A stretch of DNA of 43,733 bases from Propionibacteriaceae bacterium (lineage in GTDB: Bacteria > Actinomycetota > Actinomycetes > Propionibacteriales > Propionibacteriaceae): the NCBI GenBank assembly GCA_009778725.1, contig WRFP01000002.1, forward strand, positions 1-43,733, in the 5' to 3' direction. The translations under genes were made by a program, and so were the position numbers. Position 1 is the first letter of the stretch. Each line of letters starts with the position of its first letter. Below are positions 12,822-36,202 of this stretch, piece by piece. The notes under the pieces are model-generated. The model made no database searches, had not been told where the DNA came from, and worked only from the letters and a program-made list of their open reading frames with translations.

Positions 12822-13988
12822 TCAGTCGCGCCCGTAAAGGTCGCGCGTGTATACCTTGTCGGCAACATCTGCGAGTTCGTCAGATCGGCGATTCGTGACG
12901 ATGATGTCACTACGACGCTTGAATTCGGGCAAGTCACCCACCATCTCGTACTCCACAACCCGGCCTTTCGCCACTGAGGGTTCGTACACGATAACTTCCA
13001 CACCGGAGGCCTGCAATCTGTCGATCACTCCAAAGACCGAAGATGACCGAAAATTGTCCGAACCAGCTTTCATGATCAACCGATGAATCCCGACAACCTT
13101 TGGCTGTCGCTTCAAGATGTCGGACGCGATGAAGTCCTGCCGTGTCTCATTGGCCCGGACCACAGCAGTAATCATGTCTTGCGGGATCCCCGCATAATTG
13201 GCCAATAATTGCTTGGTATCTTTGGGCAGGCAGTATCCCCCGTAACCGAACGACGGATTGTTGTAGTGGTCTCCGATACGTGGGTCCAGACCGATTCCAG
13301 CAATGATGGCACGCGCGTCGAGGCCTTGGGAGATGGCATACGTGTCAATCTCATTGAAATAAGCAACACGCAAAGCTAAGTAGGAATTGGCGAACAACTT
13401 CACCGCTTCTGCCTCACGAGACCCAATCAACAACACTGGTACGTCAGGCGAGGCGCATCCCTGGACGAGGATGTCCGCCAAAGCCTGCCCCCTGGGTCCA
13501 CTGTCGCCAACGATGACACGGCTCGGATTCAGAGAATCGTGCAGGGCCCTCCCCTCCCGCAAGAATTCGGGAACAAACAGGATCTGGTCAGTGCCAAAGC
13601 GTTGCCTCATGTTTTCGGTGAATCCCACCGGAACTGTTGACCTGATGGCAATAGATGTATTCGGGTTCTCAGTGAGAGTCGCAGCAATGCATTCCTCTAC
13701 TGACGAGGTGTCAAAGCAGTTCGTATTCGGATCGTAGTCGGTTGGGGTCGCAATCAGTGTCCACTCCGCCCCCCTGACCGCGTCCTCCAACACGGTTGTC
13801 GCCTCTAAAGACAATTGTGTGTCCGCCATGTATTCGTGGATTTCGGATTCGGGCAGGATCGACTCCTGCCGATTGATCCTGTCAACTTTCGTCTCATCGA
13901 TATCCACCACTGTCACATGGTGATGGCGAGCCAGAACCAAGGCATTCGCGAATCCGACATAACCGGCGCCGATTACTGCAATGTTCAT
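12822..13988 (-). CDS. ugd: UDP-glucose/nucleotide-sugar 6-dehydrogenase
   Basis: A 388-residue enzyme of the UDP-glucose/GDP-mannose dehydrogenase family. The N-terminal Rossmann motif is IAVIGAGYVGFANA, followed by an acidic VVDIDETKV. The catalytic cysteine lies in GYGGYCLPKDTKQL (near residue 250). The C-terminal UDP-binding domain (~300-388) is present. It oxidises UDP-glucose to UDP-glucuronate in the cytosol with two NAD+, which suggests a uronic acid in the surface polymer or a branch. The overall pattern resembles the ~390-residue Ugd of Gram-positive and enteric capsule loci. It lies 45 bp downstream of the ABC exporter genes on the same strand and probably forms one operon with them. 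Confidence 0.92.
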   Translation of the reverse strand: MNIAVIGAGYVGFANALVLARHHHVTVVDIDETKVDRINRQESILPESEIHEYMADTQLSLEATTVLEDAVRGAEWTLIATPTDYDPNTNCFDTSSVEECIAATLTENPNTSIAIRSTVPVGFTENMRQRFGTDQILFVPEFLREGRALHDSLNPSRVIVGDSGPRGQALADILVQGCASPDVPVLLIGSREAEAVKLFANSYLALRVAYFNEIDTYAISQGLDARAIIAGIGLDPRIGDHYNNPSFGYGGYCLPKDTKQLLANYAGIPQDMITAVVRANETRQDFIASDILKRQPKVVGIHRLIMKAGSDNFRSSSVFGVIDRLQASGVEVIVYEPSVAKGRVVEYEMVGDLPEFKRRSDIIVTNRRSDELADVADKVYTRDLYGRD

Positions 13989-14033: not shown

Positions 14034-14804
14034 TTAGTCGGTCATGTTCTCATAAAACGCGATGGCATCGTCGATGGGCCCATCGTACATAAGGCTCCCT
14101 TGTTCAATCACTAACCCTCTGTCACAGAATTGCTTGGCAGAACCCAGCGAGTGTGTGACAAATAACAAGGTTAAATTATGTTTGACCAAAATCTCTCTCA
14201 TCCTCGCCAGACTCTTCTTGTGGAAAGCTCGGTCTCCCACTGACAAGACCTCGTCCAAGATGAGAATGTCTGGATCAAGAGAACTTGCGAAGGCAAATCC
14301 AAGCCGTGCTCGCATTCCCGATGAGTACGTCCGAAGAGGCTGATCAATGTAGGGCCCAAGTTCGGCAAACTCGACAATGTCGTCCATTCTCTGGTCTATC
14401 TCGGTCTGTGACAAACCCCACAAACGTCCCCTGAGTCTTAAATTCTGCCGCCCCGTCAACTGCGCATCGAAACCAGCGGAGAGATCCAAGAGAGCACTCA
14501 CTCGTCCATGGATCTCAACGAGGCCTGATTCCGGGGCAGTCACACCCGTGATGATCTTGAGAGCGGTGGATTTCCCGGCCCCATTTCTCCCGATCAGAGC
14601 GACTGACTCTCCACGGCGCACCATAAAACTGAGGTCATTGTTGGCTTTGACAGTTTTGAAAGAGACCTTGGGTAGAAAGGCTGACAACAGACGTTTCTGT
14701 TCAGAGCTATACAATCGATATGTCTTTGTGACATGCGAGAATCTGATCGCTGTGATGCTCCTTGTGGCAGCAGTCTGAATATATGTGGCAGGTCTAGATG
14801 ACAT
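14034..14804 (-). CDS. Polymer-export ABC transporter ATPase (TagH/Wzt-type)
   Basis: A 256-residue ATP-binding protein. It shows Walker A GRNGAGKST, signature YSSGMRARLGF, Walker B ILILDEVLSVGD and switch histidine FVTHSL. SALLDLSAGFDAQLTGRQN is diagnostic of the TagH/Wzt/KpsT exporters of teichoic acids and O-polysaccharides. There is no C-terminal carbohydrate-binding domain as in O9a Wzt, so it probably does not read a terminal modification itself. The start at 14804 is chosen because AAGGAG lies 7 nt upstream. It overlaps the permease stop by 11 nt. It powers flipping or export of the lipid-linked polymer across the membrane. Confidence 0.9.
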   Translation of the reverse strand: MSSRPATYIQTAATRSITAIRFSHVTKTYRLYSSEQKRLLSAFLPKVSFKTVKANNDLSFMVRRGESVALIGRNGAGKSTALKIITGVTAPESGLVEIHGRVSALLDLSAGFDAQLTGRQNLRLRGRLWGLSQTEIDQRMDDIVEFAELGPYIDQPLRTYSSGMRARLGFAFASSLDPDILILDEVLSVGDRAFHKKSLARMREILVKHNLTLLFVTHSLGSAKQFCDRGLVIEQGSLMYDGPIDDAIAFYENMTD

Positions 14805-15606
14805 CTGCGGTCTCCTTGCCCAATCTGCTCTGAATCCGCAAAGCCAGCAATAGCATAACAATGAAGATCGCCAGGAAAGGAGCATACAAGCCTGGGTGGG
14901 CCCAGACCCAGTACCTGTCACAAATAGCAGCCCTAAATGCCTGGATAAAGAAGGTCACCGGATTGAAAGCCAAGACGATTCTGACCCATGGGACGTTGAT
15001 TCTTGATACATCAAAGAAGACACCCGACAGCCACATCAACGGAACAGACATGACTTTGACAAGGTTGTGAAAATCCTTGCTGATCGCAGATAGGGGAGAT
15101 GCCAGTAAGGACCACACGGTGAATGTGACATGCATGACAACGATGAGAATGGGAATTTGCAGAAGATATATCGAAAATGGTGTTCGCGTGAAGACCATCG
15201 CAATCGACAAGATTCCCAGGGTCAAGACAAATATAATCACCTGGGCCACCGAGAAAAAATTTGAGATCACAGGTAGTGGAAATTGCAGCTTTGTCACAAG
15301 ATAGCTATAACGTCTGTAGACGTTGGACCCCGAGCTGATCATGGTTGACACGTAATTCCAGACAAAGAAGCCAGCAGCCAACCAGACGACGTAGGAAACC
15401 CCGTCGGCCAAGTCTTTGTTCACACGTAGGCCGATCTCAAGTGTGAACCAAAATGCGCACACATATACAATCGGCTTGGCCAGTAGCCAAATCCATCCTA
15501 ACCAGGTTCCATGAATGCTCTTCTTGAGGTCAGTGATAGCAAGGTACCAAATCTGACCACGATACGACCAGTTGTCTCCGATGATACTTCGCAATGTCTG
15601 AAACAC
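14794..15606 (-). CDS. Polymer-export ABC-2 permease (TagG/Wzm-type)
   Basis: A 270-residue integral membrane protein with about six hydrophobic segments (for example PIVYVCAFWFTLEIGL, VIIFVLTLGILSIAMVF and a final LAIFIVMLLLALRI). It has the ABC-2 amphipathic start NWSYRGQIWYLAITDLKKS. The phrases GTWLGWIWLLAKP and PLMWLSGVFFDVSRI are typical of TagG/Wzm exporters. It pairs with the ATPase encoded by the next gene, with overlapping ends. The start is GTG 15606 with GGGAG about 10 nt upstream. It is transcribed divergently from the coiled-coil methyltransferase gene. Confidence 0.9.
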   Translation of the reverse strand: MFQTLRSIIGDNWSYRGQIWYLAITDLKKSIHGTWLGWIWLLAKPIVYVCAFWFTLEIGLRVNKDLADGVSYVVWLAAGFFVWNYVSTMISSGSNVYRRYSYLVTKLQFPLPVISNFFSVAQVIIFVLTLGILSIAMVFTRTPFSIYLLQIPILIVVMHVTFTVWSLLASPLSAISKDFHNLVKVMSVPLMWLSGVFFDVSRINVPWVRIVLAFNPVTFFIQAFRAAICDRYWVWAHPGLYAPFLAIFIVMLLLALRIQSRLGKETADVI

Positions 15607-15977
15607 TACTGTGTTACTCCCGTTTGAGCCCTTGGAACTTCCATGGAGACAGATGAGCCTTTCTCGTGCCTCAATGATTCACTTCACGCCAGGCATCCCA
15701 CTTTCCATCACTTGTCGGGATGCACCAGAGTTCATCCTAATACTGCCACACATGCCAACTCATACACTCTGGTTATCTTGAGTGTCCATCGCAGAGAAAC
15801 CTGGGAAGATTGATTCAGCCAGACATACAGACATCAGAATCCAGTAGAATTTGTCACAACTGCCTGGGTGGATAATCAGAACCATCAGCGACAATGCCAC
15901 CCACTCTTCCCTTTCACGGGGCTAGTACATTTTCGTGTCGACCATCATTGAGTCAGCGACAGTTAGGAGTAAGGCGC
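15607..15977. other. Divergent intergenic region between exporter and methyltransferase
   Basis: About 370 bp without a supportable gene. It must hold the promoters of both the exporter operon (minus) and the methyltransferase/glycosyltransferase genes (plus). TAATAC at 15738-15743 is a possible -10, but no well-spaced -35 was found. A frame open from 15894 joins the methyltransferase in frame but lacks a ribosome site. Confidence 0.4.
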
Positions 15978-17666
15978 ATGTGGAAGCGAACAAAAAATTT
16001 CCTTGGTCTTTTCTTGCCAGTTCCCGCCAGGAGCTTTCATCGGCAGGCACGGGCAATGAAAACGAAACACGACCACGATATGCAAGAGATCAAGGACACT
16101 CTCGCAATAATGAGCACTACGTTGGCAGCGCTTCAGGCAACTGTTGAGTCAACACGCCAGGTGGCGGCGGACACACAGGGAATCGTGCGCGAAGGCCAAG
16201 GCGAGATCAGTAACCTTTCAGCTCGTTCGATGACCATCCAGGATAGGACAAATGTCCTCTGCAAGTCAGTCGACGGGGTTGAGACCACGGTAGAAAGCAT
16301 CCAAGTCCAAGTCGGAACCATCAAAACAGTCACCGACGCTATCCATAACAGCGTCGACCACACCCACGAAGCCATCGAAACCCTCCAAGACACCGCAGCC
16401 ACCACCGACACCAAAACCACCACACTGCACGAATCAGTTACCGGACTCGAAACCACCCTCGACTCCATCCAAGGTCAAGTCGGAAACATTAATACAGTCG
16501 CCAACGCCATTCACAACAGCGTCGACGAGACCCATGAAGCCATCGAAACCCTCCAAGACACCGCAGCCACCACCGACACCAAAACCACCACACTGCATGA
16601 ATCTGTCACCGGACTCGAAGCCACCCTCGACGCCATCCAAGGCCAAGTCGGAAACATTAATACAGTCGCCAACGCCATTCACAACAGCGTCGACCACACC
16701 CACGAAGCCATCGAAACCCTCCAAGACACCGCAGCCACCACCGACACCAAAACCACCACACTCACCGAATCCGTCGCCGGACTCGAAACCACCCTCGACG
16801 CCATCCAAGGCCAAGTCGGAACCATCAAAACAGCCACCGACGCTATCCATAACAGCGTCGACCACACCCACGAAGCCATCGAAACCCTCCAAGACACCGC
16901 AGCCACCACCGACACCAAAACCACCACACTCACCGAATCCGTCGCCGGACTCGAAACCACTGTCGGAACCCTTGACCAGCTTGTCCATACAACACGCAAC
17001 AGTGTTGACGAGGTCGTGTGGTCGAGCATTTTCCAAAATACGATACAAAAGTGTGATTGGTTGACAGATAAGAATTTTTCACCTGGGCGTTGGGCCGCAG
17101 GTTACCCCTTCCTATACATTCTTTTTCGCACATTACGGGACGCTGGACCGACGAGAATACTGGAGCTAGGCCTAGGCGAAACCACAAGGCTCATCTCTCA
17201 GTACTGTAGGGCGAACCCAAATGTGGAGCATCTCGTTGTTGAGAGCGATTCCACCTGGGTTGACTTCTTCCGCAAGTCTTTCGATGTGCCGGCCAACACT
17301 GAGATAATCCGTCTTCCACTGGCCTATCGCCCATACAAAACAACAGACTCAATCCGTGTGTATGAAGGATTCCATGATCATCTGGCCCACGGAGAATATG
17401 ACCTCATCTGTATCGACGGGCCAATGGGAGCCGACATGCGGTCGTACGACAGAATTGACTCTTTGTCCTTGCTTCCTGACCATCTTGCAGGATCTTTCAC
17501 CATCATTGTCGATGACTATAATCGGGCAACAGAACAAAACATGGTCTCAGAATTGCTGTCCATTCTCAATGATGCAGGGATACCCTATGTAAAGGGTATT
17601 TACAGGGGCAGTAAACATACCCTCGTGATCTGTAGCGAAGACAACCACTTTCTCACGTCGCTTTGA
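15978..17666 (+). CDS. Coiled-coil repeat protein with C-terminal SAM-methyltransferase-like domain
   Basis: A 562-residue protein. Residues 1-25 are a basic/hydrophobic stretch (MWKRTKNFLGLFLPVPARSF) that could attach to the membrane; no signal peptide cleavage is evident. Residues ~30-350 form a long predicted coiled coil. Within it, residues 97-320 are four tandem 56-residue units, each exactly eight heptads, so hydrophobic a/d positions stay in register. Residues ~375-560 look like a class I methyltransferase: motif I RILELGLGETT, an acidic strand end LVVESD, and DLICIDGP. ATG 15978 follows AGGAG by 8 nt. It lies between the ABC exporter and the glycosyltransferases. By analogy with WbdD of E. 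coli O9a (methyltransferase plus coiled coil), it may cap the growing polymer and measure its length (inference). It could instead be a scaffold with a non-catalytic methyltransferase fold. Confidence 0.8.
   Translation: MWKRTKNFLGLFLPVPARSFHRQARAMKTKHDHDMQEIKDTLAIMSTTLAALQATVESTRQVAADTQGIVREGQGEISNLSARSMTIQDRTNVLCKSVDGVETTVESIQVQVGTIKTVTDAIHNSVDHTHEAIETLQDTAATTDTKTTTLHESVTGLETTLDSIQGQVGNINTVANAIHNSVDETHEAIETLQDTAATTDTKTTTLHESVTGLEATLDAIQGQVGNINTVANAIHNSVDHTHEAIETLQDTAATTDTKTTTLTESVAGLETTLDAIQGQVGTIKTATDAIHNSVDHTHEAIETLQDTAATTDTKTTTLTESVAGLETTVGTLDQLVHTTRNSVDEVVWSSIFQNTIQKCDWLTDKNFSPGRWAAGYPFLYILFRTLRDAGPTRILELGLGETTRLISQYCRANPNVEHLVVESDSTWVDFFRKSFDVPANTEIIRLPLAYRPYKTTDSIRVYEGFHDHLAHGEYDLICIDGPMGADMRSYDRIDSLSLLPDHLAGSFTIIVDDYNRATEQNMVSELLSILNDAGIPYVKGIYRGSKHTLVICSEDNHFLTSL
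16266..16937 (+). repeat. Four 168-bp in-frame tandem repeats
   Basis: The repeat GCGTCGAC...CACGAAGCCATCGAAACC recurs with an exact 168-bp period (anchors at 16351, 16519, 16687 and 16855). Each unit encodes 56 residues beginning SV(T/A/D)G(L/V)E. A fifth partial unit follows (SVAGLETTV). Units 2-4 are nearly identical in DNA and richer in A/C with C-ending codons than the rest of the gene. This suggests recent expansion or gene conversion. Confidence 0.9.
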
Positions 17667-17791: not shown

Positions 17792-20700
17792 TTGCCTGAA
17801 GGAACTGTTGTAGATCAGAAGAATCGCTGGAGAATACCCGAATCGATATCAAATCCGTCAGGACAGGCTGATTCTGCTTCAAATCAATTGACTTGTACTG
17901 TCTCGATCATTGTTCCTGTGTATAACGATAGTAACTCCGTGGGCCGGGCCCTACAGTCGTGTCTGAACCAGAGTCTGCGTGACATTGAGGTCATCTGTGT
18001 TGATGACGGTTCCACTGACCAGACTCCTGACGTTCTCGCACAGTTCACGCAGAAAGACCCGCGTTTCAGAGTAATCACCCATTCGCGACGAAGAACGGCT
18101 TTCCAGGCCCGTAGAACTGGTGTTCTCGCTGCCCGGGGGGATTACATCATGTTTCTGGACAGTGATGACGTTCTGGACCCAGTGGCTTGTGAGAAGGTCA
18201 ACCGTGTGGCCCAGATCGACAATCCTGATGTGATCCACTTCGGAGTTTCAGTCATTGATACCATCACCAGAACCTTGATCAAACCGGGGCCAAACGTACA
18301 GCCACGAAAAGAAGTCTTATACGGCTCTGCCATTTTCCGGGATTTTTTTGGATCATTCCAACCAAACGTCTCTGTTCCCCTGTGGGACAAGGCATACCAC
18401 CATGTTCTTGCTCTTGAGGCGTTTAGAGAGCAATCAGCAGAACGAGAGGTACCACAGGCCAGCGATATATGCATGTCAGTCATTCTCCTGGCGTCGGCGA
18501 ATTCATATCGCAGCATTCCTGATGCACTGTATACGTGTTTTCTTCGGTCGCGTGAGTTAGAAGGACAGATGATCACCGACGCCGAATACGAGGACACCCT
18601 TAACACCCGGGCATCTTATGAAGTCATCACCGAATTCGTGACAGGGGCCCACAGTCCAACACCTGATGTACATGAATTCTTGTTTCACATGCGTTCATGC
18701 TTCATCCATCACAGCCTGAAATCCTTACTTCAACTTGCGACCCCAGATGCCACGGCCCTTAAGCGCCTTTTCGACCTGTGGCCATTCGAAGAGGTTCTGG
18801 ACGTGCTAGAAAGGAGATTCTCCTCAAGACCAGAAGCCCTTTTCCCCATGCTTCGCGGTTTCAAATACCGCAACGAGAGGCGAACTCGGAAGGTTCAAAC
18901 TATTGGCTTGTTTGTCGACACACTTGGGTACGGAGGTGTTCAACGTGCAATCGCAATGCAGGCCAGTCTTCTTTCCAGAACTGGGTATTCGGTCATCATA
19001 CTTACTAGCGGTAAGAAGTCAGACTTTCCCTACGCCATTCCCAAGACTGTCAAGATCAGGTCGATCTCGCCCCCCAGCGATTCAAAGCTCCAAACCGATA
19101 CAGCGGGTATTCTTCATGAGCTAGCTCAAACCTTGAGAGAGGAAAGAGTAGATGTCATCATCAATCATTCAAACTATCGAGACAACCTTCTCTTTTTCTC
19201 ACTTGGACTAGCAGTTCTTCCAGTCCAAACAGTGATGACCGTCCATAATTTTTGCCTTCGGTCCATGATGGAGTTTAACAAACGTTTTGCTAACTACCAC
19301 CGGATCCTAGCTTTGTACGATGCAGTAACAGCCCTGTCACCAGTTGATGTCCTCTTTTGGCAGACAGCGGGAGTGCCGAATGTTCATTTGGTTGCCAATC
19401 CAATCGAAGCAATACTCGAGGCTCATGAAACCGTGGAAGATACCCCTCCAGATGACGATACCACGTTCACACCAGTCGACGTTCTCTGGATTGGGCGTTT
19501 ACAAGAACGAACCAAGAGTGTCAGTGAAGTCATCCGAGTCTTTGCGGAACTGCGGAAGCTTCGTCCCCAAGCGAGCCTCCGGATCATCGGCCCAGAACAA
19601 GATCGCGGTATCCGGGGGCGACTTCATCGTCTGGCCGATGAACTCCAGGTCAGCGATGCCATAGAGTTTATGCCTGCAACCGATCAGCCCATTGCCGCTT
19701 TACAGGCTGCTTCTGTCATGCTGCAAACATCCCAGGTAGAGGGGTTTGGGTACTCGTTAGTTGAAGCAATGGCGGCACGTCGGCCGGTGGTCATGTATGA
19801 CTTACCCTATCTGACGATTCCTCAAGGAAATCCAGCGATCATCACTGTCCCTTGGGGACGACGTGATCTCTGTGCGAGGGAAATCCTTGAATTGCTCAAT
19901 GATGATGATAAGCGTGCCAGCATTGCCGAAGAGGGATACAACGACCTCCGTCTTCGCTTCAGCGATGCCTCATTGTTGGACTCCTATCAAAAACTCATCG
20001 TATCTCTGGCTCCATCCCAACCAGGACCGACACCGGATACAGCCCCAACCTTCGATGCCGCTTCCACACTAGTAAGTGAGGCGCTCCGCTTATTTAACAT
20101 CGTCTATCGGCGCGAAACCCGTTCTCAAGAACAAAGTGAAAAGGCCCGGGCTTCTCTCAACGCCAAGGTGGAACAACTGGAGACTGAGAAACGTCGCCTG
20201 CAAGACGCTCTACGCCCGGTGCTCGCGCCGAGCCACCGCTCACGTATCAAACGCTTGATGGCCACAGTCACGATACACGAACCAACTTCTGACACCACAG
20301 CAATGGGCTTGGGTATTTGGCCCTTGTGGCAACGACAGATGCTAACATGGCGACCAGTTCAGGTTTCACCATTCACCGACCTCTCACCCGATGACCACTC
20401 GTATCCATACGCTTGTTGGATGCGCGACGAGGGCTTGCTTCTGAGTTCCGAAAACCGATTTGAAGGTTCAACCTTGGTAACCCGCAGGGATGCATTGGTA
20501 GCATTGTGGATTTTGGCTGGACGACCTGAGATAGAGGCGGAAGACCCCGTGCCATTTGAGGATGTGCCCATGAACGATCCTCACGTATCAGCGTTTCTCT
20601 GGGCCACCGAGCGACGAATCGTCAGGATGCTGGCGACCACGTCAAGTCAACTCCTCAGGCCTGACCTACCATTGCGACGCGCTCCACAAGCTGCCTTTCT

Positions 20701-20974
20701 CCACAGAGCGGCAGGGAGTCCTGCGTACGTTGCTCCTGACGACAGCCCCTTCACAGATGTCCCGGCTGATCACGAATTCTATCGATCAATCATGTGGTGT
20801 GTCCTTCAAGGGGTCATGTCGGGCCAGCGTCAAGACAAGACTATTTTGTTCTCTCCTGCTTCGGTGTCAGACCGAAGCAGCTTTGCGGAAAGTCTTTTCA
20901 GTTTCGCGATTGGACCCTTAGCTGTTGAACAACAGGACCAACCAGTGGCTGCCCCGGTTCTAGGCAAGGAGTGA
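17792..20974 (+). CDS. Two-domain glycosyltransferase (GT2 + GT4) with C-terminal SLH-like repeats
   Basis: About 1060 residues. Residues ~36-260 are a GT-A family 2 domain (VSIIVPVYND, VDDGSTDQTP, FLDSDDV). Residues ~370-760 are a GT-B family 4 domain (TLGYGGVQRA, VLWIGRLQERTKS, VEGFGYSLVEAMAARRPV). A short coiled coil (~775-820) precedes three SLH-like repeats (~860-1045). The last reads SPFTDVPADHEFYRSIMWCV. The same module ends the exported proteins at 37168, 39661 and 42042, yet this enzyme has no signal peptide and should be cytosolic. The TTG start at 17792 is preferred since GGGAG lies 7 nt upstream; TTG 17753 has no ribosome site. Two transferase domains in one chain could add two successive sugars. 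The next gene starts 6 bp downstream. Confidence 0.85.
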   Translation: MPEGTVVDQKNRWRIPESISNPSGQADSASNQLTCTVSIIVPVYNDSNSVGRALQSCLNQSLRDIEVICVDDGSTDQTPDVLAQFTQKDPRFRVITHSRRRTAFQARRTGVLAARGDYIMFLDSDDVLDPVACEKVNRVAQIDNPDVIHFGVSVIDTITRTLIKPGPNVQPRKEVLYGSAIFRDFFGSFQPNVSVPLWDKAYHHVLALEAFREQSAEREVPQASDICMSVILLASANSYRSIPDALYTCFLRSRELEGQMITDAEYEDTLNTRASYEVITEFVTGAHSPTPDVHEFLFHMRSCFIHHSLKSLLQLATPDATALKRLFDLWPFEEVLDVLERRFSSRPEALFPMLRGFKYRNERRTRKVQTIGLFVDTLGYGGVQRAIAMQASLLSRTGYSVIILTSGKKSDFPYAIPKTVKIRSISPPSDSKLQTDTAGILHELAQTLREERVDVIINHSNYRDNLLFFSLGLAVLPVQTVMTVHNFCLRSMMEFNKRFANYHRILALYDAVTALSPVDVLFWQTAGVPNVHLVANPIEAILEAHETVEDTPPDDDTTFTPVDVLWIGRLQERTKSVSEVIRVFAELRKLRPQASLRIIGPEQDRGIRGRLHRLADELQVSDAIEFMPATDQPIAALQAASVMLQTSQVEGFGYSLVEAMAARRPVVMYDLPYLTIPQGNPAIITVPWGRRDLCAREILELLNDDDKRASIAEEGYNDLRLRFSDASLLDSYQKLIVSLAPSQPGPTPDTAPTFDAASTLVSEALRLFNIVYRRETRSQEQSEKARASLNAKVEQLETEKRRLQDALRPVLAPSHRSRIKRLMATVTIHEPTSDTTAMGLGIWPLWQRQMLTWRPVQVSPFTDLSPDDHSYPYACWMRDEGLLLSSENRFEGSTLVTRRDALVALWILAGRPEIEAEDPVPFEDVPMNDPHVSAFLWATERRIVRMLATTSSQLLRPDLPLRRAPQAAFLHRAAGSPAYVAPDDSPFTDVPADHEFYRSIMWCVLQGVMSGQRQDKTILFSPASVSDRSSFAESLFSFAIGPLAVEQQDQPVAAPVLGKE

Positions 20975-20980
20975 CACGCC

Positions 20981-22762
20981 ATGCTGTGGGATCCTCGCAC
21001 GGTTGATGACAACCTTGAAGAGGTAGGACGTGATAAATGGCTGAAATTCGGTCAACAGATTCGATCCACACGGATACGTGACATCCTCACAAGGAAAGCT
21101 ACTCTTGGGGTGGTTCGTCGATGGAGACAATTGGTGCAACAGGTCGAGAACGTCACATCGGGGACCATGGAGGCGATGGAGACATGGGCTCAATGGGATG
21201 AAGAAGTCCTCAGCATATTGGCTCAAGTAGTCATTTCCCAACGGATAGTCCCGACTGATCTCGAAGATGGACTTGCCATCTACAGAGCCATTGAAATCAC
21301 CAGTGGGACAACCGTTCTCGGGCAAGATGACCGACTGGCCATTTGTGATGCGCTATCCGAGTTGGGTAGTCACCAGGAACTGCTCCAGACTGTATCAAGG
21401 CTCAACATCGCAGACTTCAATCACCGACAAGCTGGACTCTTGACAGCTAATGCCTTCAATTTCGAGTCTGGTCTCGATGAATTGTTCTGGCTGAAGTCAG
21501 TCAATACTGTCTTAGGTGAGGATGAACTGGCTGATTTGGTACTTGATCCAAATGGACAACCAGTTCTTGATCGGCTGTCCTGCAAGGCAGTCCCTGGTTC
21601 TGTTCAGGGACCCTTGGTGACTGTCATTGTGCCAACCCATAACCCCGGGCTTGAGATTTTCACTGCAGTACGGTCTTTGGTACTTCAAACATGGAGAAAC
21701 CTTGAGATTCTGATCATGGATGATGCATCTGATCCAGAATACGAATCGAGAATTCAAAGCCTAGAGAATCTGGATCCTCGCATTCGCGTGATTCACTCAT
21801 CTCCCAATCGGGGATCCTACTATGTCCGAAATCTTGCGGTTTCAAGGTATGCGCATGGCGAGTTTGTTACCATCCACGATGATGATGATTGGAGCCATGC
21901 GGACAAGATTGCCTTTCAAGTCTCCTATCTGCTCGAATCGGGACTTGCTGCGGACACATGCCACACCATACGTGTCACAAACAGCTGTCGATTTGTGCGC
22001 GTTGCCGAGCCCCTCGTCTATAGCAGGATGTCCTATGCCTCGCTGATGGTCCGGCGTTCAGTGTTTCGAAGTATTGGTTACTGGCAACCGTTGTGGACGA
22101 ACGCAGATCGAGAGTTTTGGCTGCGAATCGAGTCCTGGCAAGGGCGTCGAATCCCTGTGCTCGGTAAGACTCCATGGCTCTTTCAACGTGTCCGAGAAAA
22201 CTCGTTGACCTTCAATGAAATCTCCCGCGGTTATATTCTCAGCAGTCGTCGGTGGCATGAATGGCTGTCTGTTGCACTCCACTCCCGCTCTCAAATCTCC
22301 GGTAGGCGAGTATTCGAAGGTGTGGGCGTGAGCTCTCAACCATCGCGGGCGTCCTATGCATTACAAAAACAATTGCCCGGAACCATCGAACCAAAGATTG
22401 ACGATCTGGTCATAACTCACTGGGGCAAGGAAAACGACATGATTGAGGATGCAATCAAGAAAGTTAATGAATTGCGAACTCTCGGGCATGTTGTTGGCTT
22501 GATGCATGTAGATTCACCACGCTGGGGGATTGCTGCGGGGATTACAGACAGAGTTGCAAGACTAGTTGAGCAGGAAGGAATCCATCTCATTGCCGTCGAA
22601 GATGAATTGTCGGTCAAGACAGCATGGGTCCTTGATCCAGGAGGTTGTTGGTTGGCAGAATCACCTCAACCAAAACTCCATGCGGAACATGTCATCTGTC
22701 CTTGTGGCAATGGTGGAGGCCAATGCTACCTCAGGTATCAGACCGAGACAATACATGATTAA
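20981..22762 (+). CDS. GT2 glycosyltransferase with helical N-terminal region
   Basis: A 593-residue protein. Residues ~1-205 are helix-rich and unrecognised. Residues ~208-430 are a GT2 domain: VTVIVPTHNPGLE, ILIMDDASD and an unusual metal motif IHDDDDW. The last ~130 residues (PKIDDLVITHWGKEN, then GLMHVDSPRWG) resemble the start of an extra Rossmann-like/GT-B half sometimes attached to wall-polymer GT2 enzymes. It breaks off early here, so the C-terminus may be truncated. ATG 20981 has AAGGAG about 10 nt upstream and lies 6 bp after the previous stop, so the genes are co-transcribed. It is probably a cytosolic sugar transferase for the surface polymer; donor and acceptor are unknown. Confidence 0.8.
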   Translation: MLWDPRTVDDNLEEVGRDKWLKFGQQIRSTRIRDILTRKATLGVVRRWRQLVQQVENVTSGTMEAMETWAQWDEEVLSILAQVVISQRIVPTDLEDGLAIYRAIEITSGTTVLGQDDRLAICDALSELGSHQELLQTVSRLNIADFNHRQAGLLTANAFNFESGLDELFWLKSVNTVLGEDELADLVLDPNGQPVLDRLSCKAVPGSVQGPLVTVIVPTHNPGLEIFTAVRSLVLQTWRNLEILIMDDASDPEYESRIQSLENLDPRIRVIHSSPNRGSYYVRNLAVSRYAHGEFVTIHDDDDWSHADKIAFQVSYLLESGLAADTCHTIRVTNSCRFVRVAEPLVYSRMSYASLMVRRSVFRSIGYWQPLWTNADREFWLRIESWQGRRIPVLGKTPWLFQRVRENSLTFNEISRGYILSSRRWHEWLSVALHSRSQISGRRVFEGVGVSSQPSRASYALQKQLPGTIEPKIDDLVITHWGKENDMIEDAIKKVNELRTLGHVVGLMHVDSPRWGIAAGITDRVARLVEQEGIHLIAVEDELSVKTAWVLDPGGCWLAESPQPKLHAEHVICPCGNGGGQCYLRYQTETIHD

Positions 22763-22818
22763 ACGCGACCGTCAGTCGCTCCATTGAGACGGCTTTACAG
22801 AATGGGGATTCTAGGGTG

Positions 22819-24690
22819 ATGATTAAAGAATCGGACAGCACGGTGTCCATTGCTCTCATTTGTGACGCGGGTTATGTGATTCCCACAGCGGTCACAATAT
22901 CATCCATCATTGCCAACCGATCTCAGAATTCCAGTTACGAGATTTTTATTGTCACGTCAGGAATCAGCGAGAGTGATATCAGCGAGTTCCAGAAGTTTGA
23001 AACTACCGGAGTTCGCATTGAAGTAATCACGACGAATCTGGGAGATTTGGAAACTCTCCACACGAAGGATGAGTCAGCCGTGTGCGTTGCCACACCTGCT
23101 GCCCTCCTCAAGTTCCGGCTCCCAGACCTCATACCCAGGGATAAGCTCCTTTACTTGGACGGGGACATCGTGGTGAACTCTGATCTGTCTTCGTTATTTG
23201 ACTATGACATTGACGGCTACTACCTGGCGGCAGTTCCTGATAGCGGAAGTCTCTATTTCAAGCACAAATACCTTGAACTGGTCGACACCTATTTCAATAC
23301 CGGTGTCATGTTGCTTAACCTTGAGCGAATGCGAATCGACAATTGTGCTGACACCTTGATTCGCACCAAAGCCGAGATACACGACTCAATGCTCATGGAT
23401 CAAAATGTGTTCAATCTCGTCTTTAAATCGGGTGTTCTGTACCTGCCAATTCGTTTCAACCTGCTGTATGTCAATTTGCATCGATCAAGAAAAAACTACA
23501 CGATTGACGACATCAATCTGCTCTACCACACAACTTATACTGACTTGGACGAAATCCGGTCCGACGCTGTTATTATTCACTATTCATCTCGAAGCAAGCC
23601 GTGGACATTCGGAAATGTTCCTGCAGGAGATCTTTGGTATAGCTATTTTATCAAGATGAGGAAGGTTGCCTTTCGTACACGCTACTCATTCAAGCATGTG
23701 TCGCGTGACTCTCAGACTGGAGTCTCTGTCATTCTCCCGGTATGCAACGCTGAACACTACCTTGACGAAACCCTCGCCAGCATCCGGAATCAATCATACG
23801 AGGATATCGAGATAATATGCGTTGATGCCGGCTCAACCGATGGATCCGCGGAAATCCTGCACGAGGCGCAGGAGGCTGATCATCGAATCGTTGTGATTCC
23901 TCATTCCAACCAGGATCTGAACGCTGCTCGCAATGTTGGGTTGGCATGTGCATCGGGGACATATGTTTACTTCTGCGACACTGACAATCTGCTTATGGCA
24001 GATGCATTAGAGATTGGCTATTCGACCATGGTTGAAAGTTGGTTACAGCTGTGTTTCTTTTCTGGTGGCAGTCAACCCAACGATGAACCTTCTACCCAAG
24101 GAGATCCTCAACACAAGAAACAGCATGCAAAATGGGCTCAGTATCCGGGTATCCATGATGGCTATGAGCTTTACAGATGGATGGAGGAGCACAACACATT
24201 TCTCCCGGAACCCTCACTCCAGATGATCGGAAGGGACCTGTTGATCAAGTATGATTTGTGGTTCAGAGAGAGAAGGGCCCAAGTTGATGAGGTTTTCTGC
24301 TTCGAAGCTCTGCTCAGAGCCGGAAGAGCCGCCACCATTCCAGATGTTCTGGTCCAGCGGAGGGCTCAGAAGGTATCTCATGAAACGACTAGCGATTCCT
24401 CCTTGGCCTTTCATGATTCATTCACAAGTGTTGTAGCGATGCTTTCATTGATAGGGGCGGTGGAACCGCGTGAGCCACTGCCAAAGGGTTCCAAGGACAG
24501 AATTAGTCGCCTCTTCAACAGTGCTTTCGTCAGTTACCGCGAATTACCACCCGGCAAGAGAAAGATTCCATTTTTCGAAAGTCCTGCCGAGTCAGCCCTG
24601 GCCGATCTGCTGTACCGACAGATTCAAAGTCGGACGGTTGCCTTTGAGGAATTACAGCAGGCTCGGCAGGACCATGTAGAAGTGTCTTGA
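22819..24690 (+). CDS. Bifunctional GT8-GT2 glycosyltransferase
   Basis: A 623-residue protein with two transferase domains. Residues ~8-270 form a family 8 domain (LgtC/glycogenin type). It has ISIALICD-like and YVIPTAVTISSI segments, the metal-binding LLYLDGDIVVNSDL and FNTGVMLLNLERM. Residues ~300-520 are a GT2 domain (VSVILPVCNAEHYLDETLAS, CVDAGSTDGS, YFCDTDNLL). In the second, the usual D-x-D is C-D-T-D. GT8 enzymes are retaining and usually use UDP-galactose or UDP-glucose. GTG 22816 directly upstream is an alternative start. It is cytosolic and in line with the preceding glycosyltransferase genes (about 55 bp gap). Confidence 0.87.
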   Translation: MIKESDSTVSIALICDAGYVIPTAVTISSIIANRSQNSSYEIFIVTSGISESDISEFQKFETTGVRIEVITTNLGDLETLHTKDESAVCVATPAALLKFRLPDLIPRDKLLYLDGDIVVNSDLSSLFDYDIDGYYLAAVPDSGSLYFKHKYLELVDTYFNTGVMLLNLERMRIDNCADTLIRTKAEIHDSMLMDQNVFNLVFKSGVLYLPIRFNLLYVNLHRSRKNYTIDDINLLYHTTYTDLDEIRSDAVIIHYSSRSKPWTFGNVPAGDLWYSYFIKMRKVAFRTRYSFKHVSRDSQTGVSVILPVCNAEHYLDETLASIRNQSYEDIEIICVDAGSTDGSAEILHEAQEADHRIVVIPHSNQDLNAARNVGLACASGTYVYFCDTDNLLMADALEIGYSTMVESWLQLCFFSGGSQPNDEPSTQGDPQHKKQHAKWAQYPGIHDGYELYRWMEEHNTFLPEPSLQMIGRDLLIKYDLWFRERRAQVDEVFCFEALLRAGRAATIPDVLVQRRAQKVSHETTSDSSLAFHDSFTSVVAMLSLIGAVEPREPLPKGSKDRISRLFNSAFVSYRELPPGKRKIPFFESPAESALADLLYRQIQSRTVAFEELQQARQDHVEVS

Positions 24691-25030: not shown

Positions 25031-25873
25031 ATGAGTGAAAAGGTTCGTTCAATCAAGGACATGAAACGTCTGTCCAAGAATCGGATCATTGGGGAAATTC
25101 TCTTGGACGATAGTGTCATCGAATTTCAGGGAGAAGGAAACACACTGATTGCCCTTCCTCCAGCGGGACGAGGAGTCGCATCGGAATGGAACACAACACT
25201 ACGATCTGCGTCGATCAAATTCCTGGGCAACCAGTCCATAGTCATGCTCGCACCGTCGAAATGGGCCTATTGCATTGATGTTCGAATATTTTCAGAATGT
25301 TCGTTATGCTGCGGGGACAATTTTTTCAATCCCCGTGGAGGAGCTATGTCATTTACTGTTGGTGAACATTCTAATGTTCTGATGGGCTCCGGAGGGAGAG
25401 TAGCATCGAGAGTTCAGTTAGTAACCTCAGATCAACATCCACTCTATGACATGACAAGTATGACGAGAATCAATCCAAGCCGCAGTGTACTGGTTGGCGA
25501 CAAAGTTTGGTTAGGAAAAGACTCCTTGATCATGAAAGGGACACAACTCGGAACGGGAAGCACCGTGGCAGCCAGAGCTCTTGTGGCTGGAAAGCGAGTT
25601 CCCAGCTACTCATTGTGGGGTGGTGTGCCAGCTCAACAGCTCCGTGAGCATGTGTTCAGTCTCGGATTATACGTAGATTCACTAACACCACAAGAGACCG
25701 AAAGAGTCGCCACCCAAGATTCCAACTATGTTTTCTCCAAATTTCATGAACAACGAACGCTCAACTTTGACGAAGTCGACGGTCAGATCAGAAGTCTTAC
25801 CGATATTGACGAAAAGATATCATTTTTGATGCAATTTTTTGACCGCGGAGCTATTGATCGTTGGTTCATTTGA
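25031..25873 (+). CDS. Left-handed beta-helix acyl/acetyltransferase
   Basis: A 280-residue protein with hexapeptide-type repeats. The segment VLVGDKVWLGKDSLIMKGTQ, then LGTGSTVAARALVAGKRVP, then WGGVPAQQLRE is the classical end of the WcaF/NodL/maltose-acetyltransferase group. A histidine in SDQHPLYD is the probable catalytic residue. The N-terminal ~100 residues are beta-rich and unusual in sequence. The last ~75 residues are an acidic helical extension. Such enzymes transfer acetyl from acetyl-CoA to sugar hydroxyls or amines, here presumably O-acetylating the polymer or its precursor in the cytosol. Confidence 0.85.
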   Translation: MSEKVRSIKDMKRLSKNRIIGEILLDDSVIEFQGEGNTLIALPPAGRGVASEWNTTLRSASIKFLGNQSIVMLAPSKWAYCIDVRIFSECSLCCGDNFFNPRGGAMSFTVGEHSNVLMGSGGRVASRVQLVTSDQHPLYDMTSMTRINPSRSVLVGDKVWLGKDSLIMKGTQLGTGSTVAARALVAGKRVPSYSLWGGVPAQQLREHVFSLGLYVDSLTPQETERVATQDSNYVFSKFHEQRTLNFDEVDGQIRSLTDIDEKISFLMQFFDRGAIDRWFI

Positions 25874-26251: not shown

Positions 26252-27520
26252 ATGCAGGAGCATCTATCGATTAGTGTCATTATTCCAGCACTCAATGTTG
26301 CACCCTGGTTGCCACGTTGCTTGGAATCAGTATTGTCACAACGAGATGTGTCCCTGGAAGTCCTTCTGATAGATGACGGAAGTCTCGATGCCACAGCAGA
26401 GATCGCTACCGGTTTCCAAGCCGTCGATCCTCGTCTCCGAGTGCTCCGCACTCCCAGAGTTGGGGCTGGCGCGGCCCGCAACGTCGGCACATGCAAAGCA
26501 CAAGGCACCTATCTGGCTTTTGTTGATGCGGATGACAGTATCCCCGAGAATACATATGGGTCTTTGCTCCGAGTGGCATTGCAGACACAGGCTGATGTGA
26601 CAATCGGTCGCTACCTGAGGGTTGTCGACACTGTGGTGAGCGAACCTCAACCCTCCCATTTTCCCGCGCCGGGTCAGTTGCTCACGCTCCGTGATTTCCC
26701 TGACCTGCTCAGACAACGACAGTGCTGGAATCGACTGGTTCGTCGTGACTTCTGGCTGGAACACAATCTTCAGTTCAGTACGTCACGCAGGGCGAATGAT
26801 ATTCTCGCGATGACACGCATGTTACTGACGGCTGAACGAGTGGCCACGGTCGACGACATTGTTTATCACTATCACAGCCGCCCGGGAGATACGTCTATCA
26901 CGTCACTTCAAGGCCACGTGGACTTCTTCACAGACTACCTGCGCGAGGAGATCCAATGCGCTGAACTCTGTATGGGAACGCCAGACAGGGGAATCAAGAA
27001 ATCGTACGCCTTGACCGTACTGAGGAGGGACCTGCCGAAGCATCTCCAGTCACTGCTGGCCACCTACGATGCCCTCGACCCCGCAACCAGTGGAGCACTG
27101 CAAAACGACCTGTCCCTGTTTCTCAGCCTCGTTGCTGATGCCCCGATGGCACGTCCGGCAGCAGCATGTGCCTTCGCCGTTGAGACAGCGAGCAATGGAC
27201 AGTGGTCGACGTGTCAGAGGATCATCGCGGACCTGTGGAACCAGGAACCCGCCGAACCATCGGTGTACGCGTCTGGTCTGTGTTCGTGTCAGGATTCTCC
27301 CCACTTGCACCCATGGGTCTACACACACATTTTCACTGAGAAAGTGCTGCGGCGCTTGGCCACTCTGCCATCTGAGAGTCTGGCCACCGAAGTACGCGAT
27401 CATGCTCAGGTTTACCAATTGTGCCTTCAAAACTATTCGTCTTCGCTCGATCTGGATGACGGGGAAAAACGTGTCCTAGCCGAAATAAGGAAGGTGGGCA
27501 CATCCTCCGAGCCAGCATGA
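26252..27520 (+). CDS. GT2 glycosyltransferase
   Basis: A 422-residue inverting GT-A glycosyltransferase. ISVIIPALNVAPWLPRCLES starts the fold, then LIDDGSLDATAEI and the metal motif FVDADDSIPENTYG. RRANDILAMTRM supplies the acidic segment in the acceptor half. The catalytic domain covers residues ~6-230. The rest is helical and typical of wall-polymer GT2 enzymes such as TagF/TarP neighbours. It is cytosolic. A GAGG lies upstream of ATG 26252. It is followed 160 bp later by the pyruvyl transferase. Sugar specificity is unknown. Confidence 0.87.
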   Translation: MQEHLSISVIIPALNVAPWLPRCLESVLSQRDVSLEVLLIDDGSLDATAEIATGFQAVDPRLRVLRTPRVGAGAARNVGTCKAQGTYLAFVDADDSIPENTYGSLLRVALQTQADVTIGRYLRVVDTVVSEPQPSHFPAPGQLLTLRDFPDLLRQRQCWNRLVRRDFWLEHNLQFSTSRRANDILAMTRMLLTAERVATVDDIVYHYHSRPGDTSITSLQGHVDFFTDYLREEIQCAELCMGTPDRGIKKSYALTVLRRDLPKHLQSLLATYDALDPATSGALQNDLSLFLSLVADAPMARPAAACAFAVETASNGQWSTCQRIIADLWNQEPAEPSVYASGLCSCQDSPHLHPWVYTHIFTEKVLRRLATLPSESLATEVRDHAQVYQLCLQNYSSSLDLDDGEKRVLAEIRKVGTSSEPA

Positions 27521-29108: not shown

Positions 29109-32100
29109 TTACCCCAACAGATGCCGAACAAGCCGCTCCCCTGCGTGTCCGTCTTCCAGGGGAAGAAAGTCTTTGATGAATGCGTCTCTGTTGGGCTGAT
29201 AGTCCTGGTGGATCCTGTCCAGAGAACCCAGCACGTCCACCAATTCCTCGAGTGTTCGACACCAAGGCCCGGGGGCTGTGCCTTCGTACGGAATAAGCGA
29301 TCCGCGTTCCTGACCCATATATTGGTCCAGATCAGGGACGAAGAAGACCATTGGATTGTTGGTCAGCGCATAGTCGAACCGCAATGACGAGTAGTCCAGA
29401 ACAGCCACATCTGAAGCCAGACACAACTCCTCAACCCGTGGATAGCTGGTCACATCAATGACCCGTGCTCCTCTCTCGCGAACATCGCCACCACGCCCCT
29501 CCATCGGATGACCCCGCATCAAGACCACATAGTCAGGAGTGAGGCGAGCGGCCAGCTCCGCCGGGCTCAACACGTCCGACGTCCGAGCTGTGGTCTCATT
29601 GTCGGACAGCCAGTCCCGGAACGTTGGCGCGTACAACACAGCTATCGCAGAGTCAGAGATCCCCAGCCAAGACCGCACCCGCATACGGATGTCAGTGCGA
29701 TCCGGGTCAAAGTACAGATCGTTTCTCGGGTAACCGATCTCGAGCATCGTATAGGCGCCAGGGAACGTATATTCCAGAAGTGGCGTGGCGTAGGGAGCCG
29801 GAGAAATCAGATAATCCCACTCGTTTTGCCTTTCCAGGTACGAGCGCACACGAAGAGAGGAGAATCCAGCTCCCGGCCAGTACGGTACACCTGCCAGTTT
29901 GAAGGGATAGCCGTGAAAGGTTTCCACGATCACCTGCCCTGGGTTCTTCCGATACCAATCTGGTTGATGGACATTCCATACCGAGAACTTGGAGGTCCCA
30001 AGAGCTTCATACCATTCGTGACTTCCTATCACCACCGGGATTCCCCCATCGGGTATAGCCACCGACAAATCCTGGACAGCCCATAGAACCCGCAGGTCGA
30101 GGCCCATCCTCAGGATCGCTTGGTGGATTCCGTACTGATTGCAGGTAGCCACCTCTCCGAAGTAGCTGCGCAACAAAATGGTATCTTCGCGAAGACCTGA
30201 CGTCCTCATGGTGGGCACCTGAGTACGACCAACACTCAGCGATCGTTTCTCTTGCTCAGACGGCTGAAGGGGAGGGGCGATGACGACTTGCCCACGCCTG
30301 GCCGGGGTCAGCTCAAATCGAGCGTTGCACTGACGTGACTCAAACTGAATCGGGACCCGTGGACCGATTTGCTGGGCGAAAACCAAGCATTCAGCACAAT
30401 CCTCGCGCACACCTGATCCATCGTCGGAATCAAGCGACGCTGCTCCGAGCATGTACTCTCCGCGAGGCAGCACACGTTCACCGGCACCCCACAGATCAGC
30501 TTCCAAGGGCAACACAGCACTCCACTGACTGCCTTCCCACGACACCGGAGCTGCCAGCCGCGTCTTCTTGTTGAAGAGACAAGCTTCGACTCGTCGATGG
30601 GCAGAGATGGCTCCACCCGACAAACACACACTGCTCGCCGTGAATACCACGTCATCCACTCTCAGGCGCAAGTCTTGAAGGAACCAGACTGACATATTGC
30701 CAGCAGTACTCCGGGCGAGGGCAAAACCGGTCTCCCCCACCGCCAGGGGAATCTTGTTGAACGGTTGCGGCCAACAAATGGCGAAGTCACCCGAGCCTGT
30801 ACGAACACGTACCAACAAATCTTTCCGTATATCCACCATGGACTCGCGGGGGGGCAACTTCAGGTAAAAGTCCCAGCGATTCTCACCTTGGATTCCCAAT
30901 TCTGCTACGGCTACCGGATGCTCAGCATCGTGCTCAGGGTAAATCACAACCTGATCAGGGGTGGCCTTCCGTAACGGATGCCCGAGCATGGTGCCAGTCA
31001 GCCCATCGCTCTGCACCTCAATATCGCACACAGAGAACTCTGGCTGCGTGACTTCGACCAGGACATCCTCGAAGTGACGGGGAGGTCTGACCCTGGCTTG
31101 GATTCCTGAGTCCGTGACACCCACACCGGCGTGGAGAGCCGAACTCCAGCGGTTCATTTTCTGGATTCGGGCTGTCTGCCTCAGGGACCCACATGTGACC
31201 GTCACTTCCATGGCCCACGTCACGCTTCGGACTCCATGGTTGAGCATGTCGGGACAGAGGACTACTCGGAATCCGCTCTTCGAATAGTCGTTGGACTGAT
31301 GAGACGACCGAACATTCGCCTCGGGTATTTCACATTGTTCGACTTCGAGATGTTGACGATTTGAACCACTGACAAGGTCGACTTCGATTCTTGCATCGTT
31401 GTCTGCCAGATCAAGACACGTGATATAGGCCCAACCCGTGATCGTGAGAGAACTATGATCTGGCGCCCAGGCCGCACCACGCAGTGACGCTTCGACTCTG
31501 ATGTCCGTGCTGGACACAGCCAGCACCTCGACAGGGTAACAGACGTCTTCATCATCCCAGAAGGGTACTTCGGCAATGAGAGTGTCATCCCTCCACGTCG
31601 TTCGCATGACATCAGCATTCATTCCGTCTTGATAAAGGTAGTCACGGACTGCGTCACGCCGGTCGATCAAGACCAACCATTCCAAGCCGGCAACTCGTGG
31701 TGTCACCAGCTTCCAATCGTCGGTCGGCATGCCAGCCGTGAACTCCCGCAAGCCGTCGCGTAACATGTCCCAATACTCATCCGACACGGCATCGGGATCG
31801 GTCATGGAATGCCGGAAGTCATTGTTGAGAAACTGCAACAACCGTACTCGTGCCAAAGCTTCAGACCCGAACGCTCTCAGGACAGACCTGCTTGCACGAA
31901 AGGCCCGCAACCTGTCGTTGAGGTCTTCTACCGTATGCACTTGCTGCGTGATGGAAGACCTGCTCTCCCTGGCGCGCCATCCATACACTTGATCCGACAA
32001 GACATCGAATTGCTTCGCCTGCGCATATGCTTCGGCAGTCACCTCTTGGTCTTCGTACAACACCCCCTCAGGCATGTTCAGATGTGCGTCTCGCCAGAAA

Positions 32101-34780: not shown

Positions 34781-36202
34781 TCATACGGACCGGTTCAACA
34801 GACCGACCGTACTCGGATCCTGACACGACTTCGTGACGCTCACCGTCTGACTGGTCTCCTGCGCCACGTCATCGATGTCGGCACTGACGAGAAACGGAGG
34901 GTGGTAGACAAACTCGTTTTCACTCAAGTCGCCCATTTCTCCTTGTTGCAGCCAGGCTAGCCGTGAGCTACGGTCCTGATCAAAGGTCGGACTAGCCTCA
35001 ACCAGAGGGTGCACGGGCGGCGGATAGCGAGTAGCGGCAATTTCAGCATCGAAAGCTGGATTGTCCTGGCCCTCTTGATAGATGTGGGTCAGGCCATTCG
35101 TCTCAAGGAAGCGAGTCAACACCTCAAACCTCGGCTTCAAGCCCGCGTTGTACGCACTCCAATCACCGGATTCATACTCAGTCGCGATATCGAAACCCGC
35201 GGTGACTTTCTTGCGAGCAATGGTCGGAATCTCGTGGTAGCGGGACAACTCCAAGATCCGAGACCCGAAAGGCACGGTGAATCCTGGCACTCCTGCCAGC
35301 AGGCCTGCGATGACTCCATGAATGCGAGTCCCGAAAGACACGTGCATGGGGCGCAGCATATCCACCCAGACGGACGAATCCAGCGGGAAACGCATCCTGT
35401 CTTGTTGGAAGAGAACATGTGATGTTGTCGCCGGCATCTCTTCGGCATACACTCGATCCGCCCGATTGACTCCCCATACCATCATCGCCAAGTCCGAGGT
35501 CTCTTGCGGGACGTAGATCAACCGAGGATAGGTGGCCACGTGATAAGCAACCGAACCGGCGAAGAAGGCCTCGGGTGGAGCTATGCACAACGACAAGGGA
35601 CTATCCGTATTGATCTCATCGGTCCGTCTGGTGACGCTGTAGTCTGGACCGTTCAGATACACCGATGGACAACCAATGACCTGGACGTGCTCTTCTGAGA
35701 ATCCCAGGGTCTTCAGGTACGTGGCCGTCATCTCACCTCGTACACCGACAAGTGCTGAGTGCTCAAGTACAGCGCGCATGAAGCGAGCCACCGACTCTGC
35801 CATGGCGGAGTCGAACCCCGGGGAACCATCACGGTGAAGGTTCGCCCCCACTCCCACAACTGTCACTGGGATGGTCAAGCGTTCAATGATGCCCGACAAC
35901 CGGTCCAGCCAGGTTGCGGCCCCCCTTCGAAAAGCGTTGGCCATCGGGAGTACGTATCGGTCGTAATGGTCATTGACGAACTCAGCCCAATTTCGACCAG
36001 ATGAGACCCTTTCCAGGCTGAAGGCATCGGCCGTCAACTCGGCCTGAGGCACGCTCAGCAAGCGCCAAACAGAATCGGAGAACAGAGCGTTACCAATGTT
36101 TGTGCCAAATGAAGAATGAGGGTGATAAGCCAGAGCCGCCTCCGGGCTGAGCACCGTACGGGGGTCCTTTCCGGCTCGGATCAGGATCCGTTCTCCACCC
36201 AT
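34781..36202 (-). CDS. Second polysaccharide pyruvyl transferase family protein
   Basis: A 473-residue paralogue of the enzyme at 27681. Landmarks are FGTNIGNALFSDSVWRLL, TVVGVGANLHRDG, GVRGEMTATYLKTLGF, VIGCPSVYL and FGTRIHGVIAGLLAGVPGF. The N-terminus after ATG 36202 (GGERILIRAGKDP) aligns with that of the first enzyme. AAAGG lies 7 nt upstream, so this start is preferred to a longer frame from 36247. It forms an operon with the TagF-like gene 15 bp downstream. Two divergent pyruvyl transferases in one locus suggest two pyruvylated sugars, or one enzyme recruited to another acceptor. The C-terminal ~40 residues are a poorly conserved tail. Confidence 0.87.
   Translation of the reverse strand: MGGERILIRAGKDPRTVLSPEAALAYHPHSSFGTNIGNALFSDSVWRLLSVPQAELTADAFSLERVSSGRNWAEFVNDHYDRYVLPMANAFRRGAATWLDRLSGIIERLTIPVTVVGVGANLHRDGSPGFDSAMAESVARFMRAVLEHSALVGVRGEMTATYLKTLGFSEEHVQVIGCPSVYLNGPDYSVTRRTDEINTDSPLSLCIAPPEAFFAGSVAYHVATYPRLIYVPQETSDLAMMVWGVNRADRVYAEEMPATTSHVLFQQDRMRFPLDSSVWVDMLRPMHVSFGTRIHGVIAGLLAGVPGFTVPFGSRILELSRYHEIPTIARKKVTAGFDIATEYESGDWSAYNAGLKPRFEVLTRFLETNGLTHIYQEGQDNPAFDAEIAATRYPPPVHPLVEASPTFDQDRSSRLAWLQQGEMGDLSENEFVYHPPFLVSADIDDVAQETSQTVSVTKSCQDPSTVGLLNRSV

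Follow-up and report, generated by a model that had tools for sequence, protein, structure and literature searches.

The window analysed here, a 43,733-nucleotide stretch of DNA from a Propionibacteriaceae bacterium, encodes a bifunctional glycosyltransferase that ends in an SLH trimer and carries no export signal. SLH modules are commonly read as a sign of surface location. In this enzyme, as judged from its sequence and setting, it is fairly likely that the module binds a lipid-linked, probably pyruvylated polymer in the cytosol, holding or licensing the enzyme on the chain. A wider proposition, for and against which we find the case evenly balanced, is that SLH modules were recruited at least twice as intracellular readers of a wall-polymer mark (probably pyruvate), once on this bifunctional glycosyltransferase and once on an export ATPase in the place of the Wzt cap-binding domain, so that modules of one kind would first examine the polymer in the cytosol and later anchor proteins to it outside.

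The GT2-GT4-SLH glycosyltransferase

The gene (17792..20974, plus strand) lies in an open frame of 1073 residues (17753-20974), which opens upstream of the likely TTG start at 17792; a GGGAG at 17780-17784, 7 nt 5' of the TTG, supports this start. Residue numbers are counted from 17753, and those of an earlier note on this DNA run 13 lower. The ORF was as that note had placed it, with a GT2 domain (residues 51-172, 17903..18268, plus strand; Pfam 4e-33, DSDD motif at 136), a GT4 domain (residues 393-730, 18929..19942, plus strand; Pfam about 1e-21, E-x7-E motif EGFGYSLVE at 663) and three SLH-like repeats, but no signal peptide. Catalytic motifs are present in both glycosyltransferase domains, and a charged, probably coiled-coil linker, judged by eye from the sequence, occupies 20090..20257 (plus strand).

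Ahead of the SLH module, the sequence contains no signal peptide, membrane segment or hydrophobic stretch. GT2 and GT4 domains require nucleotide sugars, which are cytosolic. By its sequence, the enzyme is cytosolic, a protein with a homologous SLH domain but without an export signal, and not a surface-anchored SLH protein. Action outside the cell, with the enzyme anchored to the wall like other SLH proteins after leaving through an unknown release or export route, would agree with the survey described below, where most SLH proteins besides the ATPases look exported or membrane-anchored; given the missing targeting signals and the need for cytosolic substrates, we regard it as very improbable.

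The fusion comes from one draft assembly, probably metagenome-derived and 70% complete. A chimeric or mis-assembled ORF was considered and is unlikely: no start codon inside the frame is followed by a signal peptide, GC3 runs on from the glycosyltransferase part without a break, and only 6 nt separate the stop from the next gene. GC3 is 0.54 in the SLH module and 0.49-0.57 in the glycosyltransferase part, compared with 0.69-0.75 in the secreted SLH modules and genes of the locus. The match to the glycosyltransferase part, together with the closely following gene, makes a recent copy or a loose remnant unlikely, and a recent copy of a neighbouring SLH gene is ruled out by the differing GC3 and by an alignment identity of only 22-24% between the module and the neighbouring secreted modules.

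A genuine SLH trimer

The three repeats (all plus strand) lie at 20369..20548 (D876, W889 and R911 kept, with Ser at the SLH-Gly29 position), 20552..20737 (D937, W950 and R976 kept, with Met at the SLH-Gly29 position) and 20747..20899 (D1002, W1015, R1041 and the SLH-Gly29 residue G1024 kept). The Pfam SLH model (PF00395) scores 19.0 bits on the protein, under its cut-off of 20.8, so that routine annotation would overlook the module; here the earlier note was ahead of standard annotation. A repeat HMM built from the SLH repeats of the window's own secreted proteins scores 25 bits on repeat 2 and 28 bits on repeat 3 and gives no match to repeat 1. A trimer HMM was built from 23 secreted or membrane SLH trimers that did not include the glycosyltransferase; it spans all three repeats (873-1047, 109 bits, E=6.6e-32 among 9,940 ORFs). 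The isolated module scores 115.6 bits with this HMM, and the best of 2000 self-shuffles scores 8.2. The reading in the earlier note depended on these C-terminal repeats being related in profile comparison to those of the exported proteins, and related they are, at 109-116 bits against at most 8.2 for shuffles. All nine D/W/R positions of the three repeats are kept, at 22-33% identity to other trimers.

The AF2 model of the module is confident (pLDDT 91.6, pTM 0.88) and has the pseudo-threefold arrangement of three repeats. Foldseek gives 15 PDB matches to it at E<=0.001, every one an SLH trimer from Sap or SpaA, and several of these structures contain a pyruvylated ligand. A direct phmmer search of the PDB sequences with the module returned no match even at E=10, so that profile and fold were needed to recognise it. 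Judged by sequence profile and predicted fold, the C-terminal module is a genuine SLH trimer. It resembles the trimers of Sap (Bacillus anthracis) and SpaA (Paenibacillus alvei) in its three repeats, predicted fold (TM 0.6-0.8), D/W/R positions and, by alignment, one complete ligand groove; unlike them, it sits on a cytosolic glycosyltransferase, has by alignment only one of three grooves complete, and falls just below the Pfam threshold.

These properties bear on the possibility that the fusion has no function, being either a neutral accident or what is left of a decaying SLH gene that became joined to a glycosyltransferase gene. Its occurrence in one genome only among the samples searched, with no close relative by which to gauge selection, is what such an accident would leave. 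Some 180 codons have nevertheless stayed open, with a confident fold, the nine diagnostic residues, a codon composition shared with the glycosyltransferase part and the next gene 6 nt away, and we consider an accident quite unlikely.

One ligand groove complete by alignment

SLH-Gly29 is required for binding in SpaA. In the glycosyltransferase module, SLH-Arg43 is present in all three repeats and SLH-Gly29 in one, leaving one groove complete by alignment. In Bacillota, SLH modules bind a pyruvylated sugar that forms the non-reducing end of a wall polymer; each groove draws its Arg from one repeat, its Gly loop from the following one and an aromatic residue from the third, and the terminal pyruvylated sugar is preferred (PMC6081394). 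This pyruvate-dependent ligand, well established in Bacillota, is the element missing from the argument of the earlier note. By alignment, all three grooves are complete in 16 of 18 secreted or membrane SLH trimers. In the glycosyltransferase and in all three SLH-bearing ATPases described below, only groove G3 is complete (Arg of repeat 2, Gly of repeat 3, aromatic of repeat 1), an assignment that is approximate because the aromatic SLH-13 position is shifted in the SLH type of the glycosyltransferase module. The glycosyltransferase has lost the Gly of repeats 1 and 2, while the ATPases have lost half of repeat 2 and the Arg of repeat 1; as they differ in detail, the losses look independent. 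One groove would suit reversible reading of a chain end, and three would favour firm anchoring.

The same losses could be taken to mean that the module has retained the fold and given up glycan binding, serving as a scaffold that, for example, docks the enzyme on a partner in a biosynthetic complex. SLH-Gly29 is gone from two of the three grooves, and the TRAE-type motifs are divergent (TRRD, RRAP, DRSS), as a scaffold would allow. Each repeat nonetheless keeps its D, W and R, one groove is complete, and the SLH-bearing ATPases keep the same groove at a position where their family elsewhere has a glycan-binding domain. A pure scaffold thus appears unlikely.

A polymer gene cluster with two pyruvyltransferases

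The glycosyltransferase gene lies in a polymer cluster. Upstream of it, on the minus strand, are genes for a UDP-glucose/GDP-mannose dehydrogenase (12822..13988), an ABC export ATPase without a C-terminal recognition domain (14034..14921) and an ABC-2 permease (14794..15606). A plus-strand run (15894-29006) begins with a coiled-coil protein whose C-terminus, judged by eye, is methyltransferase-like (15894..17666), and continues with the GT2-GT4-SLH gene, three further glycosyltransferase genes (GT2, 20981..22762, the gene starting 6 nt past the stop; GT8-GT2, 22816..24690; and GT2, 26252..27520), a hexapeptide-repeat transferase recognised by a weak match (25031..25873) and a polysaccharide pyruvyltransferase (PF04230, 27681..29006), on which the CsaB model is sub-threshold. 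Minus-strand genes follow for a GT2 plus CDP-glycerol glycerophosphotransferase protein (29109..32861), a CDP-glycerol glycerophosphotransferase (32981..34765) and a second PF04230 polysaccharide pyruvyltransferase (34781..36247).

At the right end, on the plus strand, are genes for three secreted SLH proteins: one with a weak endo/exonuclease/phosphatase domain and three SLH repeats (37168..39462), one with three C-terminal SLH repeats (39586..41694) and one truncated by the contig end (42042..43733). With Pfam SLH E-values of 3e-17, 1e-9 and 2e-8 and hydrophobic N-termini, they bear out the three exported SLH proteins that the earlier note had described at 37-43.7 kb.

The coiled coil of the 15894-17666 protein consists of near-identical repeats, and its gene lies between those of the ABC exporter and the GT2-GT4-SLH protein, a position that recalls a WbdD-type chain-length ruler. 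WbdD-WbdA chain-length control in Escherichia coli O9a (PMC3482155) likewise sets a coiled-coil, methyltransferase-like protein beside a multi-domain glycosyltransferase and an ABC exporter; no kinase was found here, and the likeness is one of layout only. Elsewhere in the window, 3881-10291 encodes a secreted protein of 2136 residues that has several bacterial Ig-like domains and a hydrophobic segment at its C-terminus. A PIN-domain protein (711-1127) and a DUF4143/AAA_14 ATPase gene (1158-2435) lie at the left end, outside the polymer cluster.

CsaB pyruvylates a lipid-linked precursor (PMC6030368), so that a pyruvate mark would already be present inside the cell. The coupling of SLH proteins to CsaB orthologues is known, for example in P. 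alvei, where csaB-tagA-tagO occurs with slhA and spaA (PMC6801904). As in P. alvei, the pyruvyltransferase genes of the window adjoin SLH genes (PMC6801904). Both exceed the Pfam PF04230 cut-off, and one is in the gene run of the GT2-GT4-SLH protein. Unlike the CsaB system, the window's pyruvyltransferases are divergent, neither passing the CsaB equivalog model (TIGR03609; 27.5 bits against a cut-off of 213), and the cluster adds glycerophosphotransferases and an ABC exporter.

The association extends to other genomes. Among the matches listed, 12 of 24 genomes have PF04230 no more than 10 kb from an SLH gene, with about 1.0 expected; the size of this effect is approximate, because the positions come from among those matches and polysaccharide genes cluster. 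In the family, PF04230 is found in 16 of the 19 SLH-positive genomes versus 87 of 180 others (p=0.003). There are exceptions: the complete genome G149 has SLH proteins and no PF04230, and G283 (one contig, 99% complete) contains no pyruvyltransferase, and no SLH protein besides an SLH-bearing ATPase. G283 shows that pyruvate is not a universal partner of cytosolic SLH modules, and it rules out the strict rule, also considered, that a cytosolic SLH module always occurs with a pyruvyltransferase and secreted SLH proteins.

The fusion in other genomes

The earlier note had proposed looking for the GT2-GT4-SLH architecture in other genomes, always beside secreted proteins with similar repeats. No second fusion was found in 199 family, 397 order, 395 class and 397 phylum genomes, which are overlapping samples; these searches scored only the best candidates in each genome, so that this is not proof of absence. 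There was likewise none among about 220 SLH ORFs from the family, order, class and phylum stretches, of which two sets were screened with a non-exhaustive GT2 profile built from five domains of the window and a third was checked for length and signal only. Relatives of the whole protein in GTDB contigs gave GT2 and GT4 matches only, none extending to the SLH module, and plasmid records gave no match to the protein. A literature search found no paper on intracellular SLH modules.

Those SLH ORFs lacking a clear signal that were scanned in Pfam turned out to be amidases, nucleotidases, CotH, Ig-type and other surface proteins of this sort, and two ABC fusions. Other architectures were also seen. 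Two proteins of the same genus (L142:4-1749 and L143:11215-12852) have an N-terminal LRV_2 domain, a long Pro-rich stretch and one membrane segment, followed by divergent SLH repeats. The secreted proteins at 37168-39462 of the window and L136:5337-7772 both combine an endonuclease/exonuclease/phosphatase-type domain with an SLH trimer, which is C-terminal in the former and N-terminal in the latter. An ORF of 1132 residues (L165:4199-7594) combines a CotH-kinase domain with SLH repeats.

SLH trimers on Wzt-like export ATPases

The order-level survey yielded two signal-less SLH ORFs that are ABC ATPases with a C-terminal SLH trimer, and a third species was found later. These Wzt-like polysaccharide-export ATPases occur in three species (G283, G306 and G784) of another family of the order, and are encoded at L227:3066-4481 (plus strand), L235:5943-7319 (minus strand) and L276:6133-7476 (plus strand). 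In the neighbourhoods of L227 and L235, the ATPase gene adjoins genes for an ABC-2 permease and a UDP-galactopyranose mutase. Pfam SLH detects the SLH part of the ATPase at 2e-9, AF2 models it with pLDDT 88, and its best PDB matches are the SLH of Sap. The ATPase relatives in the genus comprise 11 that stop directly after the ATPase and one (L251 1024-2265, minus strand) that has a classical Wzt_C domain (PF14524) in the place of the SLH trimer. With these SLH-bearing ATPases, cytosolic polymer machinery has acquired SLH trimers a second time, independently.

Between the G306 and G784 ATPases, the omega of the SLH part is 0.095, indicating purifying selection. For the G283 ATPase against the other two it is about 0.6, which would fit relaxed constraint, although the faster-changing branch cannot be told from three sequences. 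A secreted SLH gene directly adjoins the ATPase gene in G306 and G784 and is missing in G283. The proximity to secreted SLH proteins expected by the earlier note, when examined for these ATPases, thus held in two of the three species and failed in G283.

In the cytosol, Wzt_C reads a cap at the non-reducing end of the growing chain (PMC9445017). By analogy, the SLH trimers may play a similar part, as C-terminal glycan-recognition domains on cytosolic polymer machinery that would read a chain-end mark. The likeness is an analogy of role: Wzt_C is a jelly roll whose fold is unrelated to the SLH trimer, the glycosyltransferase module is not a Wzt_C family member, and among the ATPase relatives Wzt_C occurs only on L251. 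Unlike in the Wzt O-antigen exporter, the module of the window is on a glycosyltransferase, and the window's own ATPase (14034-14921) has no extension.

A proposed role in the cytosol

The mechanism we favour is that the SLH trimer of the glycosyltransferase has been put to a new use in the cytosol, where it would serve as a carbohydrate-binding domain. Its intact groove (R976, G1024 and the repeat 1 aromatic) would bind the terminal, probably pyruvylated sugar of the lipid-linked polymer of the cluster. The bound module may hold the GT2-GT4 enzyme on the tip of the acceptor chain or, alternatively, restrict it to chains already marked. The secreted SLH proteins of the locus would be the three-groove versions and would hold that polymer, or one like it, after it has reached the wall. 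What we observe is the fold, the residues kept, the absence of a secretion signal, pyruvyltransferase genes in the cluster and the independent SLH-bearing ATPases; the predicted binding in the groove, its ligand and the effect on catalysis are the steps that we infer from them.

We know of no experimentally established ligand for an actinobacterial SLH module. The module might instead bind an intracellular glycan other than the ligand of the secreted proteins, such as another polymer or a non-pyruvylated intermediate. Its low identity to the neighbouring secreted modules would be in keeping with this, as would the SLH-bearing ATPase of G283, a genome with neither secreted SLH proteins nor PF04230. 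Pointing the other way, the cluster itself has pyruvyltransferase genes, one of which shares the gene run of the glycosyltransferase, and the SLH-pyruvyltransferase linkage is general in the genomes surveyed; we rate a different glycan as rather unlikely. A ligand common to the module and the secreted SLH proteins, as the earlier note had suggested, is plausible from the sequences, and with one glycosyltransferase fusion and the mixed evidence from the ATPases, G283 in particular, no more than that. Intracellular recognition of the polymer, the central idea of that note, gains from the SLH trimers found at the Wzt_C position of export ATPases, the intact groove and the pyruvyltransferase genes of the cluster, and has against it that the glycosyltransferase fusion was seen in one assembly only.

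If the favoured reading is true, cytosolic SLH modules on proteins that make or export polymers would break the rule that SLH signifies surface location. Polymer marking, export and protein anchoring would be joined in one recognition code, and such modules would open a direct way to the ligand that actinobacterial SLH proteins bind.
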